Source: Clostridiales bacterium
GTDB lineage: Bacteria; Bacillota; Clostridia; Saccharofermentanales; Saccharofermentanaceae
DNA length: 64,000 nucleotides
Reading direction: 5' to 3'
NCBI GenBank assembly: GCA_017561715.1
Contig: JAFZBN010000017.1
Span: 62,001 to 126,000 of the forward strand
Shown: positions 4,163 through 42,355 of the stretch, one piece after another
Layout of the letters: every line of letters begins with the position of its first letter
How positions within the stretch are numbered: position 1 is the first letter of the stretch
The notes under the pieces: generated by a model
Databases searched by the model: none
What the model was told of the DNA's origin: nothing
Seen by the model: the letters and a program-made list of their open reading frames with translations, nothing else
Program-made: the position numbers and the translations under genes

Positions 4163-5226
4163 ATAATCGTTCCGCCACCGATCACTTCATCGCCGTTATA
4201 GAAAACCGCGGCTTGTCCCGGTGTGATCGCACGGATCGGTTCGTCGAACACAAGGCGGACTTTTCCGTCTTCTAGAGGAATGGCAGTCGCCCACTGTTCT
4301 TTCTGGTGGTAGCGTAGCTTTGCCGTAACGCGGATCTCGCCCGTCGGAACTTCGCCACTGATCCAGTTCACGTCATCGATCAGGGCTTCGGTGTTTCTTA
4401 GATCTTCATCGTATACAAGAATGACTCGGTTGTTCTCCACATCGAGGCGGGAAACATACATCGGTGCCGGAAGCGCGAGGCCCAGACCTCTTCTCTGCCC
4501 CGGGGTGTAACTGACGATACCTTTGTGGGTGCCGAGTACTTTTCCGTCTTTATCAACAAAATCACCTGCCGGGTATTCTTTTCCCGTAGTCTTCTTTAAG
4601 AAGGAAACGTAGTCTCCGTCGGGAACGAAGCAGATATCCTGGCTCTCTCTTTTTTCGGCATTGATCATGCCCGCGTCTTTCGCCGCCTCGCGGACCTCGC
4701 TCTTCTGAAGATCGCCGAGCGGGAATACTGTATGTGCCAGCTGTTCCTGCGTCAGGTTATAAAGCACATAGCTCTGATCCTTGGTCTCGTCCAGTGCTTT
4801 CAGAAGATGATAGCGACCGTCGTCTCTTTTTTCGATACGCGCATAGTGACCCGTGACGATCACGTCGCACTTAAGGACCTGCGCGCGCTCATAGAGTTTT
4901 CCGAACTTGAGATAGCGGTTGCAGTCGATGCAGGGATTCGGGGTCCTGCCGTGTTCGTAGGAATCAACGAACTTGCCGATGACCTTTTCCTTGAATTCTT
5001 CCTTGAAATTGAAAACGTAATACGGGATACCGAGGTGCATGCAGACAGAACGCGCGTCTTCCACGTCGTCTAAAGAACAGCATGTCTTGGGATTGGCAAC
5101 GACGATATCCTCGTTGCTGTAGAGCTTCATGGTGCAGCCGATACAGTCGTATCCTCTGTCCATCATGATCTTGGCGGCCAGTGAAGAATCCACGCCGCCG
5201 CTCATCGCGATTAAGGCGCTGCTCAT
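4156..5226 (-). CDS. mnmA: MnmA, tRNA-specific 2-thiouridylase
   Basis: 356 residues from the ATG at 5226, which overlaps the nadA stop as ATGA. This start is preferred over one ten codons upstream inside nadA. The PP-loop SGGVDSS is at residues 9-15. The catalytic cysteines fall at 102 (NPCIDCN) and 199 (ESQDICF), the same numbers as in E. coli MnmA. The enzyme adenylates U34 in the anticodon of Lys, Glu and Gln tRNAs and inserts sulfur from a persulfide relay. GHYAR and the C-terminal SPGQ-like segment (TPGQAAVFY) are present. The sulfur donor desulfurase is not nearby. The pairing with nadA may reflect translational coupling only. Confidence 0.95.
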   Translation of the reverse strand: MSSALIAMSGGVDSSLAAKIMMDRGYDCIGCTMKLYSNEDIVVANPKTCCSLDDVEDARSVCMHLGIPYYVFNFKEEFKEKVIGKFVDSYEHGRTPNPCIDCNRYLKFGKLYERAQVLKCDVIVTGHYARIEKRDDGRYHLLKALDETKDQSYVLYNLTQEQLAHTVFPLGDLQKSEVREAAKDAGMINAEKRESQDICFVPDGDYVSFLKKTTGKEYPAGDFVDKDGKVLGTHKGIVSYTPGQRRGLGLALPAPMYVSRLDVENNRVILVYDEDLRNTEALIDDVNWISGEVPTGEIRVTAKLRYHQKEQWATAIPLEDGKVRLVFDEPIRAITPGQAAVFYNGDEVIGGGTIIG

Positions 5227-6140
5227 TTTCCGAGTTCCAGCATCGCGTCGATGCACTTTCTGGAATCGCGGATCAGCTCATCGCTCATGATGATCTCTTC
5301 GCCGCCGATACCGAGAACGGTGCGGTATACATCGACCAGTGTCGTGGCCTGCATGTTGTGGCAGACGCAGTCTTTGGAAAGTGCGAAAAAGCTCTTGTCC
5401 GGGCAGTCGAACTGCAGATGCTCGACGATACTGTTTTCCGTCGCGATGATGAATTCCTTCTCATCGCTCTTCTTCGCGTATGCCATGATCTCCGTCGTGG
5501 ATCCGACGAAATCCGCCTGAGCGACGAATTCCGGACGGCTCTCCGGATGGATCAGGATCTTGGCACCCGGGTGTTCCTCGCGGGCTCTGTCAAAATCTCT
5601 CTGGGTGAAACGAAGGTGTGTCGGGCAACCGCCGTGAACGAGCTTCATTTCCTTTTCCGGAAGTTTCTTGCCGATCCAGTCGCCGAGGTTACAGTCCGGT
5701 ACGAAAAGGATCTTATCGTTATCGATGTTCTTGATGATCTTTACCGCGGAAGAAGATGTGACCGCGACATCGCAGAGAGTCTTTAATTCAGCAGTGGTAT
5801 TGATGTAAGCAACTACAGTATGGTCCGGATTCTCGGCCTTTAAAGCGGCGAGCATTTCCGGCTCGATCTGCTCGGCCATCGGGCAGCCCGCAGTAGGATT
5901 TGCGAGATATACCTGTTTCTCCGGGGAAAGCATCTTTACGGTCTCGGCCATAAAGCGTACACCGCACATGATGACTTTCTTGGCAGATACTTTTGCCGCT
6001 TCCTGGGCAAGTCCGAAGGAGTCACCGATATAGTCGGCAACTTCCCAGATATCGTGACGCTGATATGCGTGTACCAGGATACAGATATCGCGCTCCTTCT
6101 TTTCCTTGTTGATCGCATCCTGCAATTCGCGAACGGTCAT
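5223..6140 (-). CDS. nadA: NadA, quinolinate synthase
   Basis: 305 residues. NadA condenses iminoaspartate with dihydroxyacetone phosphate to quinolinate, the first committed precursor of NAD, using a [4Fe-4S] cluster. The three cluster ligands are in the expected places: C86 (NPTAGCPMA), C172 (HGGCPTH) and C260 (DCVCHNMQ). Further motifs are HAYQRHDIWEVADYIGDS near the N-terminus and FVPDCNLG. The usual partners nadB and nadC are absent from this window. It overlaps mnmA by four bases. A 14-base gap separates it from the CAT-fold gene upstream, so 7323 down to 4156 could form one transcript. Confidence 0.94.
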   Translation of the reverse strand: MTVRELQDAINKEKKERDICILVHAYQRHDIWEVADYIGDSFGLAQEAAKVSAKKVIMCGVRFMAETVKMLSPEKQVYLANPTAGCPMAEQIEPEMLAALKAENPDHTVVAYINTTAELKTLCDVAVTSSSAVKIIKNIDNDKILFVPDCNLGDWIGKKLPEKEMKLVHGGCPTHLRFTQRDFDRAREEHPGAKILIHPESRPEFVAQADFVGSTTEIMAYAKKSDEKEFIIATENSIVEHLQFDCPDKSFFALSKDCVCHNMQATTLVDVYRTVLGIGGEEIIMSDELIRDSRKCIDAMLELGK

Positions 6141-36203: not shown

Positions 36204-37664
36204 TTAAGCCAGTCCGAGCAGCTCGGATAATCCGACGGTGAACAGTTCCTTGAACTCGTCAATGGTTTCGATCTCGCCTTCGTAGTAAGAAGGAAGGAGC
36301 TTGTCGATCTCCGCGACCGCGTATTTCTGGATGGTGATATTCTTCGAGATCTCGATCTTCTTTGCTTCCGGTACCAGGATCGTGTAAGGGTTCTGTCCGC
36401 GAAGGAAATCGCTTGTGAAGTTCGGATCCGCCGCGCACTTTTCCATGATGCTCACGCTGTTGACGAACTGTCCCTTTACGGCCAGATCCGTCAATACCGT
36501 CTCGTCCGTCGTCAATGTACGCAGTACTTTCCCCGCGGTCTCTTTTCTGTCACAGGTAGACGCGACCATCAGCCACATGCCTCCGTCAAAAGAAGGTGTC
36601 GCGGCAGGTACGATCGACCAGCCTGTTTCCGGCGGGGTCGTCGTGCTCTCTGTCGTTTCCGCGCCGGTCTCTGTAGAGGTCGTTGTCTCTTCTACTTCTT
36701 TATGTCCCGGAACATAGCCGATCACATCGGAAGCGGTCTTCAGTGATCCGAAGAACAGAACACACTGTCCGTCAGCGATCGCCTGCTGCCATTCGGTACT
36801 TCCGTATGCAAGATCCATCGTCAGCGTCTCGTGATAAAGTGTCGACTGAAGCGCGACATACTTATCAAAATCGATATCCGTCTTAACGGCTCCGTCTTCT
36901 ACCCAGGGAGTCGTATGTCCCGCCCAGAAAACATTGCTGATCTGGGTCCTGTCGGCAAGAAGCTTCTTCGCGCCTTCGGAATTCATGCTCACTTCTCTGG
37001 CATACTCAAGGAGCGTATCCCACGAGGAGACCATCGGCGCCACCTTGGAAGGATCTGCCGTTCCCAGGCACTGCTCCGCCTCGGCACGGTTATAGAAGAC
37101 CACTGACGGCTGAAGTTCGAAAGCCAGTGCCTTTATGGAATTCTCGTCATTCGTGGCCGCGTCATAGGTGTACTTGAACTGATCGGAAAGCTCCTGTCGG
37201 CCGATGCCTACCTGCTCAATACCGATCGAGTGCTCACTTGCCGTCCAGGCTTCGAGATTGTCGGCATCCATCAGGAAAAGATCCGGTTTCTTCTCACCCA
37301 GAACGATCGCGTTATTAAGCTCTTTAATATATTCGGAACGATCGATATAGACATACTCATATTCGATATCCGTAAGATAATCGGCGAGCGTCTGTTCGAA
37401 GTCTTTATCGTATCCGTAGATTACGAGGGGATCTGTCGATTCGTCAGTGACGGTACTCGGAACGGACGGTTCCGAGGAAGGTTCTGTTCCTCCGGATGTA
37501 TCCGTCGGATCTTCCGTATCGGTAGGGATCGTTCCGGTCGGTTTTTTCTCGGAAGTCTTCTCTGTCTGATCGTCTGTTTCCTTCGAAGAAGAGGGCTTGC
37601 AGGCGCACATCGGCAACGCCATCGAGACCACAAGTATCGAAGCTAAAAGTTTACCTGCTTTCAT
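36204..37664 (-). CDS. Extracellular solute-binding lipoprotein, probably for oligosaccharides
   Basis: 486 residues. The signal peptide ends at MCAC with C22 as the likely lipidated residue. A Thr/Glu/Pro linker (about 25-78) precedes a family-1 type binding domain: DPLVIYGYDKDFEQTLADYL, KKPDLFLMDADNLEAW, PSVVFYNRAEAEQC and WQQAIADGQCVLFFGSL. A second Thr-rich insert (about 330-348) interrupts the domain. Its position directly ahead of the cellobiose and cellodextrin phosphorylase genes suggests a cello-oligosaccharide ligand, but this is context only. No permeases adjoin it. Confidence 0.85.
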   Translation of the reverse strand: MKAGKLLASILVVSMALPMCACKPSSSKETDDQTEKTSEKKPTGTIPTDTEDPTDTSGGTEPSSEPSVPSTVTDESTDPLVIYGYDKDFEQTLADYLTDIEYEYVYIDRSEYIKELNNAIVLGEKKPDLFLMDADNLEAWTASEHSIGIEQVGIGRQELSDQFKYTYDAATNDENSIKALAFELQPSVVFYNRAEAEQCLGTADPSKVAPMVSSWDTLLEYAREVSMNSEGAKKLLADRTQISNVFWAGHTTPWVEDGAVKTDIDFDKYVALQSTLYHETLTMDLAYGSTEWQQAIADGQCVLFFGSLKTASDVIGYVPGHKEVEETTTSTETGAETTESTTTPPETGWSIVPAATPSFDGGMWLMVASTCDRKETAGKVLRTLTTDETVLTDLAVKGQFVNSVSIMEKCAADPNFTSDFLRGQNPYTILVPEAKKIEISKNITIQKYAVAEIDKLLPSYYEGEIETIDEFKELFTVGLSELLGLA

Positions 37665-37808: not shown

Positions 37809-37884
37809 GGGGCATTAGCGCAGTTGGGAGCGCATCACACTGGCAGTGTGGGGGTCAGGGGTTCAAGTCCCCTATGCTCCACCA
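37809..37884 (+). tRNA. tRNA-Ala, anticodon GGC
   Basis: Complete cloverleaf with encoded CCA. Acceptor arms GGGGCAT/ATGCTCC again contain G3:U70. The D arm is GCGC/GCGC. The anticodon arm TCACA-CTGGCAG-TGTGG gives GGC, reading GCC/GCU codons. The T arm is AGGGG-TTCAAGT-CCCCT. It differs from the tRNA-Ala at 1153 in the D, anticodon and T arms but shares the acceptor stem. Confidence 0.96.
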
Positions 37885-37888
37885 AATC

Positions 37889-37918
37889 AAAAGGCCGTCT
37901 CAAACGAGACGGCCTTTT
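37889..37918. terminator. Bidirectional terminator between tRNA-Ala and the radical-SAM gene cluster
   Basis: AAAAGGCCGTCTC and GAGACGGCCTTTTG form a 13-bp stem around AAAC with T or A tracts on both flanks. It ends the tRNA on plus and the small-protein transcript on minus. Confidence 0.88.
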
Positions 37919-37971
37919 GCTATTCATACGAGGCTGCAGGGAATCGTACAAATCATGTCTTTTATGTTTCT

Positions 37972-38277
37972 TTAACTGCGAAAAAGCTTCTCGGCCTTCG
38001 GATGGATCTTCTTCAGATCGATCTTTCTTTCGAGGATCTGTTTCCTAAGCTCAGCAATATCCGACGGACCGGAAACCTTGTAGTATATTTGGCAATGTGG
38101 AACATATACGCAATTATTCGTTCTCGTACATGGATCACGTTCGAGAACTGGATCTCTGCCTATGATCACACGCTCCACCAGTTTCCGGTCAATGCCGGCC
38201 GCAACCAGTTTCTTGGAAATGCTCTCCGCCTCAGCTTGAGTTAATGTAATATCCGTATTGAACTCTTTGCTTTTCAT
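37972..38277 (-). CDS. Cys-containing small protein 1, possible radical-SAM substrate
   Basis: 101 residues from the ATG at 38277. This start is five bases after GAGGTGA, the same spacing as in its paralogue; an ATG nine bases earlier overlaps the site. The conserved N-terminal half (FNTDITLTQAEAESI, KLVAAGIDRKLVERVI) looks like a helical leader. The middle (40-68) is divergent and holds Cys at 50, 56 and 62 (CX5CX5C). The C-terminal end (GPSDIAELRKQILER, IHPKAEKLFR) is again conserved. It is the last gene of the radical-SAM operon. A precursor or partner peptide modified at the Cys region is inferred. A metal-binding accessory protein is the alternative. Confidence 0.75.
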   Translation of the reverse strand: MKSKEFNTDITLTQAEAESISKKLVAAGIDRKLVERVIIGRDPVLERDPCTRTNNCVYVPHCQIYYKVSGPSDIAELRKQILERKIDLKKIHPKAEKLFRS

Positions 38278-38321
38278 TTTCATCACCTCTACTTTTCCGG
38301 TAATAATCTACCCGGATCTCG

Positions 38322-38633
38322 TTAGTCGCGGAAAAGCGTCTCTGCTTTCGGATGGATCGACTTGATATCAATGTTCCTCTCGAGAATTTGCTTCTTAAGC
38401 TCTGCAATATCTGTCGGTCCAGCTGACCTGAAGTATTTAGTACACGGATTCTTACCTTTTACGCAGTGAACACAGTTTTCTGTTTTATCACATCCTTTAC
38501 CACCAAATACGCGTTCGTCGATCACTCTCGCAACCAGTTTCCGGTCGATTCCGGCTGCAACCAGTTTATTGGTAATAGTCTCTGCATCTGCCTTAGTTAA
38601 TGTAATTTCTGTATTAAACCCTTTACTTTTCAT
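38322..38633 (-). CDS. Cys-containing small protein 2, possible radical-SAM substrate
   Basis: 103 residues from the ATG at 38633, chosen because AGAGGTGA lies five bases before it and it matches the paralogue. A longer frame overlapping the radical-SAM gene lacks such support. The ends are nearly identical to small protein 1 (FNTEITLTKADAETI, LVAAGIDRKLV, IAELKKQILER, IHPKAETLFRD). The middle differs and carries four Cys at 48, 54, 57 and 64 (CX5CX2CX6C) among Gly, Lys and Thr. It lies 19 bases after the maturase stop. The pair arose by tandem duplication, including the ribosome-site region, with change concentrated in the Cys segment. Confidence 0.75.
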   Translation of the reverse strand: MKSKGFNTEITLTKADAETITNKLVAAGIDRKLVARVIDERVFGGKGCDKTENCVHCVKGKNPCTKYFRSAGPTDIAELKKQILERNIDIKSIHPKAETLFRD

Positions 38634-38652
38634 CTTTGTCACCTCTACTTTT

Positions 38653-40077
38653 CTAGTAATTGTCTGCCGAGATTTCATTTCCGACAGATACTCGTTGTTT
38701 TGTGTTCCGACTTGTATTATTCCCTGCAGCCAGAAAAGAATCGGTATATTTCACCAGTTGGTCTTCAAACCGGTTATTGTAATAATCGCAATCATACATA
38801 TTTGCCGACTCCTCATTCGGAAGGGCCGGCCGGATACAGCCTCCACCGCAGATAAAAGCGAATCTGCAACGGATACAATTCTTTTTGTATCCCATCATTT
38901 TTCTTTTCCACTCTTCTTTGGGTTCAGGATTCCATTGGATCGAACCTGTCTCGTCATATGTGCCGATCACGTCTTCCGTTCCGCCTACACAGGACCAACA
39001 AGGATAAATGGTCCCGTCCGGAGCAAAGACACGAAGAAGGCTGTCTGCGCCACAGGCGGCGACTTTGAGCGGATACTTCTGATTAAGATAAACAACAGGA
39101 AAAAGATGATCATCCAGATCCGCTGTCCGGCCGGTAATATCGTATTCAAGTTGCGGATATTCTTGCTCTACGGCTTCTTCCAGTTTCTTTAATTCCGTAT
39201 TCACAAGTGTCAGGTCTCCGGCGCCCACTACAGCATAGGCATTAACCATAAAAGACGGATCGTTCAAGAATCCTCTTCTATCCAGGTCTTCCAGAAGATC
39301 CATAAATTGCGGCTCATTTCGTTTGTCGAGATTGACTCGCATCTTGACGATAACGTCTGTATCTTTCAACGCCGTCTCGATATTCTTCATTATCTTGTCA
39401 TAGGAAGATTCTCTATCCAGTGCGATCCTTCTGCTGTTATGGATCTCGCGGGGACCATCGACCGTGATCTGCAAGGAACTGATTTTCTTGCTCCCGAGAA
39501 GATCCATATAATGCTCGAGGTCATGGCCGTTCGTCACAGCAAAACATGTATTATCGATTTCTTCGCACTTTTCCAGGATGTACTCGATTATATCCCGGTT
39601 TTCTTTTGCCAGCGGTTCTCCGCCGTAAAGGGTAATGTTTTCTCCCGGCTCTATCTTGTCTTTTATGATTTTAAAGACCGCATCCACCTGTTCTTTCGTC
39701 ATTACTTTGGAAGGATATCCGCCTTCTTTTTCAAAACAGTATGTGCAACGGTAATTACAGCCCATAAAGGGTACCAGAACGACAGCCCATTGATCGGGAT
39801 CTCTTAGCGAATTCATTTCAAAAGCAAGTGCTTCTGCCTTCGCCGCTTCTTCATCCTGAGTCAGTTCTGTCAGGTATCCTCTTTCCAGGAAATGCTCACG
39901 GATCACCTCAATTTTGTCCATGATCTCCGATGGCAGGACATCTTCATGTGCATAGGAAGAGACGACTTCATAAGCCTCTTCATCGATCGTGTCCATGAGC
40001 CCCGTGAGCCCGTTGAGAAGAATGTGCTCCCCATTAGATAAAGGAGCAGTAAAAATGTTGTAACTGCTGAATCTCAT
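38653..40077 (-). CDS. Radical SAM/SPASM peptide maturase
   Basis: 474 residues. Radical-SAM cluster ligands are C107, C111 and C114 (CNYRCTYC). YGGEPL (151-156) is the AdoMet-binding GGE region. The SPASM domain has the full seven-Cys pattern: C342, then G355 and C360, then C401, C404, C410, C414 and C430, enough for two auxiliary [4Fe-4S] clusters. The first ~75 residues (YNIFTAPL...HILLNGLTGLMDTIDEEAYEVV) look like the peptide-recognition wing found in sactisynthase and ranthipeptide maturases. Two Cys-rich small proteins follow in the same operon. The product type (thioether or other) cannot be told. RBS GGAGGG lies five bases before the ATG. Confidence 0.9.
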   Translation of the reverse strand: MRFSSYNIFTAPLSNGEHILLNGLTGLMDTIDEEAYEVVSSYAHEDVLPSEIMDKIEVIREHFLERGYLTELTQDEEAAKAEALAFEMNSLRDPDQWAVVLVPFMGCNYRCTYCFEKEGGYPSKVMTKEQVDAVFKIIKDKIEPGENITLYGGEPLAKENRDIIEYILEKCEEIDNTCFAVTNGHDLEHYMDLLGSKKISSLQITVDGPREIHNSRRIALDRESSYDKIMKNIETALKDTDVIVKMRVNLDKRNEPQFMDLLEDLDRRGFLNDPSFMVNAYAVVGAGDLTLVNTELKKLEEAVEQEYPQLEYDITGRTADLDDHLFPVVYLNQKYPLKVAACGADSLLRVFAPDGTIYPCWSCVGGTEDVIGTYDETGSIQWNPEPKEEWKRKMMGYKKNCIRCRFAFICGGGCIRPALPNEESANMYDCDYYNNRFEDQLVKYTDSFLAAGNNTSRNTKQRVSVGNEISADNY

Positions 40078-40324
40078 AACAACCCTCCGATTCTTCGCAT
40101 CAGAAAATAGCTTCTGAATGCGCGCGCCAAAATACCTCCTGTTCAGAAGTTCCTATCGGGACTTCTTTTGAACAAGAAGTTCAGTTTCTTCGGGATTATG
40201 TCACTGGAAGTCATTTCGTTCCGAAGAACGAATCATGATGAAAAGTTGTTATGTCGTTTTGTGTAAAAGATTCACTGGATGGCGCTTGGAATCGGATTCT
40301 GTCATCTCATTCCGAAGTAATTTC
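40078..40324 (-). promoter_or_regulatory. Long structured leader of the radical-SAM operon
   Basis: The transcript would have ~240 untranslated bases. Stems include CGTTC/GAACG around a TCTTCGG region and GAAGTCCC...GGGAACTTC-like pairing. Near the gene TTCTGAA and TTCAGAA flank a perfect AGGAGG (about 40136). After this site a short TTG-initiated frame (MARAFRSYFLMRRIGGLL) could be translated and ends overlapping the maturase ATG as TTATGA. Control by attenuation or coupling is speculation. Confidence 0.4.
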
Positions 40325-40353
40325 ATTATAGACTACCGAGAAACAATTGTCAC
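40325..40353 (-). promoter_or_regulatory. Promoter of the radical-SAM operon
   Basis: On the minus strand GTGACA (40348-40353), 17 bases, TATAAT (40325-40330). The -10 box is perfect. Confidence 0.7.
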
Positions 40354-40407
40354 TAAAAATTGACAACTCCGTTTTCTCCCCTCACAAACCGCGCGCGAAC
40401 GACACAC

Positions 40408-40534
40408 GAGTAATCGGTAACAGCATAAGAATACAAAAAGAAAAACTCTTCGAAGCCTCCGCAGGGCAACGCCCGAGGACCAGCGAGAAAGAGTTTTTCT
40501 TTTTAGTATCTTATTAGGTTTCTACCGATTACTC
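40408..40534. repeat. Very long palindrome, copy D, covering the glmS stop codon
   Basis: A perfect outer 12-bp stem GAGTAATCGGTA (40408-40419) / TACCGATTACTC (40523-40534) includes the last Glu codon and TAA stop of glmS. Inner stems are ATAAGA/TCTTAT and AAAAAGAAAAACTC with its complement. The core (40454-40484) reads GCCTCCGCA, GGGC-AAC-GCCC, GAGGACCAGC. It presumably terminates glmS. I see no gene in 40078-40528. Confidence 0.9.
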
Positions 40535-42355
40535 TACCGTAACGGACTTCGCAAGGTTCTTCGGCTTATCGATATCGCAGCCGTTCTCCTTGGCAACGTG
40601 GTAAGCGAGCATCTGTAAAGGAACGATCTCAACTACCGCGGAGAAGAGATTGTCGATCTTCGGAATAAAGATAACATCATCTGCCTGAGCCAGGATCTCA
40701 TGGTTGCCCTTGTAGGTAACCGCCAGGACCTCAGCGCCACGGGCCTTGACCTCAACGATGTTGCTCAATGTCTTTTCCATGATGTGCGGGTTGCAGCAAA
40801 GAGCGATGACCGGCTGATGCTCTTCGATGAGAGCGATAGTACCGTGCTTGAGCTCACCCGCGGCATAGGATTCTGCGTGGATGTAGGAGATCTCCTTCAT
40901 CTTCAGGGCAGCCTCCAGAGCGATCGCGGAGTCGGTATTTCTTCCGATGAAGAACATCGACTTGGTGTTGTGGTATTTCTTCGCCATCTTCGGGATCTTC
41001 GGGTTCATGTCGAGAACTTCCTGAACACGCTTCGGGAGCATCAGGAGTGTGGACAGGTGATGGTAATAATCGGCATCCTCGATCCTCTCGAGTGTCTTAG
41101 CGATGTAAACGGCAACCAGGTACAGAACGGAAACCTGTGTCGTGTAACCCTTTGTGGTCGCAACGGCGATCTCCGGACCCGCCCATGTGTAAAGGACATC
41201 ATCCGCGAGCTTTGCGATGGTGCTTCCGACAACGTTTACGATTGCCAGAGTTCTGGCGCCTCTCTCCTTGCACTCCTTCATGGCAGCGATAGTATCCGCT
41301 GTCTCACCGGACTGGGAAAGAACGATCAGAAGTGTGTGCTCGTCGATCAGCGGATCGCTGTAACGGAGTTCACTTGCGAGCTCACAGGAAACCGGGATAC
41401 GGCAGAGCTTTTCGATCGTGTACTTGGCGGCGCATCCTGCATAGTAAGCGGAACCGCATGCCGTGATGACGATCTTGTTGATGGACTCGAGATAATCCTT
41501 TGTCCATTCGATCTCGTCGAGAACGATCTTGCCGTCCTTGATACGAGGAGCAACAGTTGCCTTAACAGCTCTCGGCTGCTCGATGATCTCCTTGAGCATG
41601 AAGTGCTCGTAGCCGCCTTTCTCAGCTGCTTCGATATCCCATGTGATACGAGAGATCTTCTTTGTGATGGTCTGACCTGCCGCGTCAAATACCTTGACTT
41701 CTTCAGGAGTCAGTTCAGCGAACTCACCGTCATCGAGGTAGATCGCGTTTCTTGTGTTGGCTACGAGTGCGGTAACGTCAGATGCGAAGAAGTTCTCACC
41801 TGCGCCGACACCGAGGATCAGCGGGCTTGCCTCACGTGCAACTACGATCGTGTCCGGCTTATCTGTGCAGATAACACCGAGAGCGTAGGAACCGGAAAGA
41901 CGAGCGGATGTCTTGATAACGGCACGACGAAGGTCTCCCTTGTAGTACATTTCGATGAGGTGAACGATGACCTCTGTATCTGTTTCACTGTCGAAGTGAT
42001 AGCCCTTGCCGATGAGCTCTTCACGAAGAGAAATGTAGTTCTCGATGATACCGTTGTGAACGATCGCGAAACGGCCGTCGTTACTCAGGTGCGGGTGCGC
42101 GTTCGTATCTGTCGGAGCGCCGTGTGTTGCCCATCTGGTATGACCGATACCGAGCAAACCGGGGCAATTCTTACCGTCTTCTGTCAGTTCGCAGAGATTC
42201 GCGATACGGCCGCTTACCTTATCGACTTTGATGACACCTTCATTTAAAACGGCAACTCCCGCAGAGTCATAGCCTCTGTATTCGAGTTTCTTAAGTCCGT
42301 CCAGAAGGATCGGTGCCGCCGGCTGTGATCCTGTATATCCAACGATTCCACACAT
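40529..42355 (-). CDS. glmS: GlmS, glutamine-fructose-6-phosphate aminotransferase
   Basis: 608 residues, standard length. The N-terminal CGIVGYTG exposes Cys2 as glutaminase nucleophile after Met removal. HTRWATHGAPTDTNAHPH and the NGIIENY loop complete the glutaminase half. Two SIS sugar-isomerase domains follow, with SQSGETADTIAAM and the C-terminal LAKSVTVE that closes the active site. It makes glucosamine 6-phosphate for peptidoglycan. Only 90 bases separate it from purA and none resemble the glmS ribozyme, so the ribozyme control of many Bacillota is missing here. Confidence 0.97.
   Translation of the reverse strand: MCGIVGYTGSQPAAPILLDGLKKLEYRGYDSAGVAVLNEGVIKVDKVSGRIANLCELTEDGKNCPGLLGIGHTRWATHGAPTDTNAHPHLSNDGRFAIVHNGIIENYISLREELIGKGYHFDSETDTEVIVHLIEMYYKGDLRRAVIKTSARLSGSYALGVICTDKPDTIVVAREASPLILGVGAGENFFASDVTALVANTRNAIYLDDGEFAELTPEEVKVFDAAGQTITKKISRITWDIEAAEKGGYEHFMLKEIIEQPRAVKATVAPRIKDGKIVLDEIEWTKDYLESINKIVITACGSAYYAGCAAKYTIEKLCRIPVSCELASELRYSDPLIDEHTLLIVLSQSGETADTIAAMKECKERGARTLAIVNVVGSTIAKLADDVLYTWAGPEIAVATTKGYTTQVSVLYLVAVYIAKTLERIEDADYYHHLSTLLMLPKRVQEVLDMNPKIPKMAKKYHNTKSMFFIGRNTDSAIALEAALKMKEISYIHAESYAAGELKHGTIALIEEHQPVIALCCNPHIMEKTLSNIVEVKARGAEVLAVTYKGNHEILAQADDVIFIPKIDNLFSAVVEIVPLQMLAYHVAKENGCDIDKPKNLAKSVTVE

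Follow-up and report, generated by a model that had tools for sequence, protein, structure and literature searches.

Does a three-gene operon in a rumen-type Clostridia bacterium, comprising one radical-SAM enzyme and two small Cys-containing proteins, encode a peptide-modifying system, and if so, of what kind? SPASM maturases usually target a C-terminal core that follows an N-terminal leader. In this operon the putative cores are instead positioned between a leader and a follower that are both conserved, an arrangement that is to our knowledge unusual for these enzymes, no counter-example being present in the papers searched.

The window, as the whole 64,000 nucleotide stretch of DNA that was analysed is termed here, carries the operon on its minus strand, in the order promoter, leader, maturase, preA, preB and hairpin, followed by tRNA-Ala(GGC). 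An earlier note on this DNA had the coordinates, strand, gene order and motifs correct on re-inspection, and the position it gave, between tRNA-Ala (37809-37884, past the preB end) and glmS (40529-42355, upstream), is borne out. The locus is also, as had been remarked, more AT-rich than its surroundings, with a GC content of 44.3% against 50.8 ± 2.0% in windows of the same size (2 of 309 being lower) and a GC3 of 0.48 against 0.61-0.64 in the adjoining genes. All three genes are under purifying selection, and the operon contains no protease, exporter or immunity gene. A plasmid or phage origin was considered and rejected, as the operon has no integrase-like sign and just its patchy presence and lower GC content point that way. 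In the flanks, ARAGORN calls a tRNA-Thr at 37410-37500 inside a lipoprotein gene, which has no Rfam support and is therefore probably a false call. A long stem-loop follows glmS (40425-40514), with an inner motif, CTCCGCAGGGCAACGCCCGAGGAC, common to several species; similar stem-loops, either terminators or REP-like elements, are found at loci L019 and L024.

The maturase and its affinities

The enzyme (38653..40077, minus strand; 474 aa) comprises an RRE-like wing (residues 1-95), a radical-SAM core and a seven-Cys SPASM region. The Radical_SAM domain is matched by Pfam (PF04055, 1.8e-19) and the SPASM region by TIGR04085 (51.9 bits, against a cut-off of 27). The CX3CX2C motif of the SAM cluster (C107, C111 and C114) and the full set of SPASM cysteines (342, 360, 401, 404, 410, 414 and 430), both already recognised in the earlier note, are all present and are invariant over 12 maturase homologues. 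In the AF2 model, the N-terminus forms a beta3-alpha3 wing of RRE-like (PqqD-like) topology, with pLDDT values of 51-81 across the block and no RRE match in Pfam.

The maturase aligns almost from end to end with CteB, the SCIFF enzyme that forms thioethers (phmmer 3e-18, starting from residue 16; profile 8e-47). A Foldseek search with the AF2 model gave 5why and 5wgg as the top matches, and the best fold matches in the PDB were CteB, anSME and TigE, the last of which is part of the poly-cyclopropylglycine pathway. Among NCBIfam models, the highest scores were those of TIGR04463 (152 bits, cut-off 525), CefB (146, cut-off 600) and Clo7bot (124, cut-off 600), all of them below threshold, followed by PapB (109) and SCIFF (99). 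None of the ranthipeptide models was passed (TIGR03974, 99 bits against 425; NF047865, 108.7 against 340; TIGR03906, 65 against 453), and no cut-off of a named NCBIfam family was reached. The earlier note had considered an anSME-type grouping to be evidence against its reading; the maturase falls outside anSME, scoring 62 bits with TIGR03942 (cut-off 349) where the RiPP-maturase models give 99-152. Given the CteB alignment, the scores with RiPP models and the fold matches, together with the missed cut-offs, the enzyme is, judged on sequence and model, a RiPP-type SPASM maturase outside the named families. Because those cut-offs all failed, the chemistry is not readable from family membership, and the system is filed as a SPASM-modified RiPP or protein variant outside the ranthipeptides.

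The small proteins and their counterpart in a sister species

Downstream of the maturase lie preA (38322..38633, minus strand; 103 aa) and the paralogous preB (37972..38277, minus strand; 101 aa), both putative precursor or substrate proteins, with likely ATG starts at 38633 and 38277 respectively, each preceded by a GAGGTGA ribosome-binding site. As had been noted, their Cys spacing differs, the preA core CDKTENCVHCVKGKNPCTKYFRS(A) (38424..38492, minus strand) having four cysteines in the pattern CX5CX2CX6C and the preB core CTRTNNCVYVPHCQIYYKVS (38071..38130, minus strand) three, as CX5CX5C. The ends of the two paralogues, previously described as almost identical, are similar, sharing 31 of 41 leader and 25 of 32 follower residues. 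The claim that the middle differs is correct insofar as the cores share 7 of 18 residues, yet this segment is not freely variable, as both cores follow a motif kept between species. The AF2 models of the two proteins consist of a helical hairpin, a low-confidence Cys segment and a second helical hairpin (mean pLDDT 69 for both). An internal duplication of the hairpins was rejected on comparing the N- and C-terminal halves (p 0.36 for preA and 0.28 for preB); the same test gave p 0.005 for the small protein of the sister species, for which duplication is not claimed.

Searches of Pfam, NCBIfam, PHROGs and the PDB gave chance-level matches to preA and preB, including HHH_5 (E 0.093) and one NCBIfam model (E 0.02), and the best fold match to a precursor model had an E value of 2.9. 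A Nif11-like or other known leader family was likewise rejected, there being no match to a precursor family in Pfam, NCBIfam or PHROGs, and no homologues were found in phages or viral contigs. The earlier note's description of the system as undescribed stands against these four databases and the open-access literature searched.

In the sister species G002, represented by a MAG from goat omasum (locus L006), the operon occupies the same locus, and its maturase shares 78% identity with that in the window. Its small protein is a single gene in which Cys units of the same kind as the preA core stand in tandem, as GCGKAGNCHHCGACDKYFRAAAE followed by GCPKASNCVHKHGCDKYFRAAGP. These two units are identical at 15 of 18 aligned residues despite a dS of about 2.9, near saturation and from a small sample, which argues that selection holds the core unit. 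The motif common to the cores, C-x-K/R-x2-N-C-x-H/Y...C-x2-Y-F/Y-R/K, lies between the helical leader and the follower, and its Asn is invariant in all four units. The NG86 method gives dN/dS values of 0.16 in the maturase, 0.15-0.31 in the leader and 0.08-0.23 in the follower.

Each species retains a 4-Cys and a 3-Cys core, carried by separate genes in the window and by a single gene in G002, where the 4-Cys unit is followed by the 3-Cys unit (CX5CX5C). The presence of one unit of each type per species suggests that the two core types act together. It is plausible that the G002 gene is a fusion of the 5' part of preA and the 3' part of preB; this agrees with the arrangement of cysteines and with the follower, in which G002 equals preB at 15 sites and preA at 6, while the leader sites are neutral (10 equal to preA and 14 to preB), so that the fusion stays a suggestion.

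Regulatory sequences, repeats and distribution

A candidate promoter, GTGACA-17-TATAAT (40325..40353, minus strand), has its conservation in the sister species as the sole argument in its favour, as promoter-like matches in the region are at chance level. An operator-like inverted repeat, TTGTCA-8-TGACAA (40347..40366), overlaps its -35 box and is identical in both species. The maturase gene is preceded by a putatively structured 5' leader RNA of approximately 235 nt (40078..40312, minus strand; 3762-4000 in L006). The two species agree at 188 of 232 aligned leader bases (81%), against about 51% at synonymous sites in the maturase gene. Compared with shuffled sequences, the leaders of both species have more stable folds (z -4.1 and -2.7). 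The consensus fold has 57 pairs, none broken and five changed but kept, although it was built from those same two sequences; when the fold is instead computed from a single sequence, paired positions are only moderately depleted of substitutions (p 0.002-0.02), with 8-13 pairs disrupted. The fold is predicted to pair both Shine-Dalgarno sequences, with that of the maturase largely paired to the 5' part of the leader, and the modelled structure would probably gate translation of the maturase; its conservation hints at regulation of such operons. The leader matches no Rfam family, and a covariance model searched across the order found these two loci and otherwise a single chance-level match (E 0.76). 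A possible 18-codon upstream ORF (40074-40130, minus strand), with a TTG start, GGAGG ahead of it and an ATGA overlap with the start of the maturase, has the same length and frame in L006, and may merely reflect the conserved RNA.

At the other end of the operon, a perfect 14 bp hairpin (37888..37919) is likely to be a bidirectional terminator serving both the operon and tRNA-Ala. An inverted repeat brackets the precursor gene or genes in both species: one arm, with the core GGCTGCAGGGAAT, lies within the maturase gene at its 3' end (38709..38731), and its reverse complement is downstream of preB (37932..37954), the counterparts in L006 being at 5347-5359 and 5846-5858. The exact arm match is 13 bp in the window and 14 bp in L006, while none of 60 shuffles gave a match above 12 bp, and the extended motif has two sites in the genome, which are the two arms. 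Homology to the operon-free genome G022 ends at the arm at 37932-37954. The repeat could represent an invertible cassette, an RNA stem or an insertion scar. Elsewhere, short imperfect palindromes form arrays between glmS and tRNA-Ala in L018, L019, L021, L022 and L006 (3300-3650), with motifs that differ by species (GGGATAAAAACG, AGACCATATGG and ACCGATAGAAA); the window has no array at that intergenic site.

The system is very rare, two species being known to carry it, both with the same operon of a maturase and adjoining Cys precursor; the kind of peptide-modifying system is already known, and the variant is new. Close homologues of the maturase were found in 2 of 23 members of the genus. Of 188 genomes of the order, two encode the small proteins; chance matches aside, none of the 391 genomes sampled from the class adds a further case. 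Neither set contained small proteins without the maturase, a dissociation that the earlier note had regarded as evidence against its proposal. Two weak precursor matches in the order, and three inspected in the class (E 5.8e-4 to 0.009), were rejected because they cover short segments lying in frames that are unrelated or antisense. A maturase-peptide scan of 85,000 species genomes found the sister species to be the sole close relative. In 14 other members of the genus, including G022, the closest relative, the operon is absent and glmS and tRNA-Ala are at most about 560 bases apart. The island is thus rare, lineage-specific and maintained.

Proposed chemistry and competing explanations

The reading we favour, with a probability of roughly 0.55, is of a ranthipeptide-like system with an internal core, in which the maturase cross-links the Cys cores of preA and preB, most likely through non-alpha thioethers. 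The RRE-like wing would probably bind the helical N-terminal leaders, and the SAM-cleaving cluster and the SPASM auxiliary clusters would then probably cross-link the internal cysteines by chemistry of the ranthipeptide or QhpD type. Candidate acceptors are the invariant Asn five residues past the first Cys and the Tyr/Phe/Arg stretch past the last. The C-terminal helical hairpin may be conserved as a further element of recognition or folding, and one 4-Cys and one 3-Cys core would apparently be needed jointly. Of the peptide-modification system proposed in the earlier note, the architecture stands, a SPASM maturase beside its own Cys precursors with the core between leader and follower, while the modification itself is something we infer.

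Several lines of evidence favour this reading: the near full-length alignment with CteB and the superior scores of RiPP-maturase models; the invariant SPASM cysteines, the modelled wing and the hairpins around the Cys segment; and the low dN/dS, the shared locus in the sister species and the absence, in the genomes searched, of small proteins lacking the maturase. Precedents are provided by CteA/CteB, freyrasin (PapA/PapB), NxxcA, which has an Asn acceptor, and QhpC/QhpD (PMC8326336, PMC9413430, PMC7876137); freyrasin uses Asp as the acceptor and SCIFF uses Thr (PMC8326336, PMC9413430). Against it are the missed NCBIfam cut-offs, the restriction to two species, the lack of a protease, exporter or immunity gene in the operon, the variation of core spacing by unit, the potential of the 4-Cys knuckle to bind metal and the moderate confidence of the precursor models (mean pLDDT 69).

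Among the nearest described systems, CteB/CteA (SCIFF/thermocellin, a ranthipeptide) shares the full-length rSAM-SPASM architecture, its RRE corresponding to the RRE-like wing, as well as the occurrence in Clostridia and a Cys-rich substrate gene adjoining the enzyme. However, the SCIFF score is about 99 bits against a cut-off of 425, and SCIFF precursors are approximately 45 residues long with a C-terminal Cys core, whereas preA and preB have theirs in the interior, ahead of a helical follower that is conserved. TIGR04463, CefB and Clo7bot are likewise SPASM maturases of Cys-containing peptides and the best models, yet they score far below their cut-offs and preA and preB match no known precursor family. 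PapB is alike in its repeated Cys units and recognises its substrate through an RRE and leader, as is proposed for the maturase, but scores 108.7 bits against 340, and the CX3D/E motifs of PapA are not a common feature of the four core units here. If true, the proposed reading would add a type of substrate intermediate in architecture between ranthipeptides and stapled proteins of the QhpC kind, and the naturally split and fused core pair would show which units must act jointly.

The product might instead be a full-length, internally thioether-stapled structural or regulatory protein retained in the cell, as in QhpC/QhpD; this overlaps the favoured reading, differing in the fate of the product, and is possible while remaining on the unlikely side. 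QhpD modifies an internal part of QhpC, a protein of similar size at about 100 residues (PMC7876137), and a comparable internal cross-linking of a folded protein, rather than a short peptide, would fit a follower more conserved than the core and an operon devoid of protease and exporter; nevertheless, the QhpD model scores 65 bits against 453, the substrate is different, and amine-dehydrogenase genes and partners of the qhpA/B/E/F/G type are absent from the operon. An extended version, in which one maturase staples the 4-Cys and 3-Cys cores of helical-hairpin proteins that are kept full-length within the cell, all switched on by a new leader RNA hiding the Shine-Dalgarno sequence, is improbable as a whole.

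SPASM enzymes as a class form many types of bond, and the maturase could modify the small proteins without thioethers, through C-C or ether bonds or an alpha/beta change on the Y-F/Y-R/K stretch, the cysteines being used otherwise. This finds some encouragement in the conserved KYFRAA stretch within the duplicated unit and in TigE being among the closest solved folds after CteB. We nevertheless consider it unlikely, as the best models (TIGR04463, CefB, Clo7bot, PapB and SCIFF) are mostly maturases of Cys peptides and cysteines are among the most constant core residues.

Less likely still, the small proteins could be helical proteins binding metal through a Zn or Fe-S knuckle, with the maturase having another target or requiring them as partners. 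Although preA and the first G002 core have four cysteines in a knuckle-like CX5CX2C...C arrangement flanked by helical hairpins, and a phage protein cluster near the maturase relative L073 includes Cys proteins of the CxxCPY type, preB and the second G002 core have three cysteines and lack a constant fourth ligand, the units are tandemly duplicated like those of multi-core precursors, there is no match to a metal-protein family and the small proteins are not seen apart from the maturase in the genomes searched. A decaying or recently transferred remnant with no present function, as the AT-richness and the patchy presence (2 of 23 genus members, with G022 and others lacking the operon) might suggest, is very improbable given that dN/dS is well below 1 in the maturase as well as in the leader and follower, that the ribosome-binding sites are intact and that promoter, leader RNA and position are conserved.

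Outside the genus, the nearest maturases, nearly full length, are those of L072 (an IMG/VR contig, 3300002175_000317; 34% identity) and L071 (a Muribaculaceae plasmid; 29-30%). Each adjoins a small Cys ORF, but these are unlike preA and preB, the pieces of the L072 ORF having no homology to them and the L071 ORF no evident similarity by eye. L072 is phage-like, with baseplate- or tail-like genes as well as its full-length SPASM maturase; its small Cys ORF lies before the maturase and seems to be continued in another frame, and a protein of many LGFP-like repeats is encoded downstream. In L073 (IMG/VR 3300037249_000985), a SPASM maturase lies amid several small Cys proteins of the CxxCPY type, which are possible substrates. 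In L074 (IMG/VR 3300021431_002946; 4254-4773), a maturase precedes a run of four paralogous short Cys peptides of the EYCDGCDQVS... type, likely to be a separate multi-precursor RiPP cluster on a 467 kb contig.
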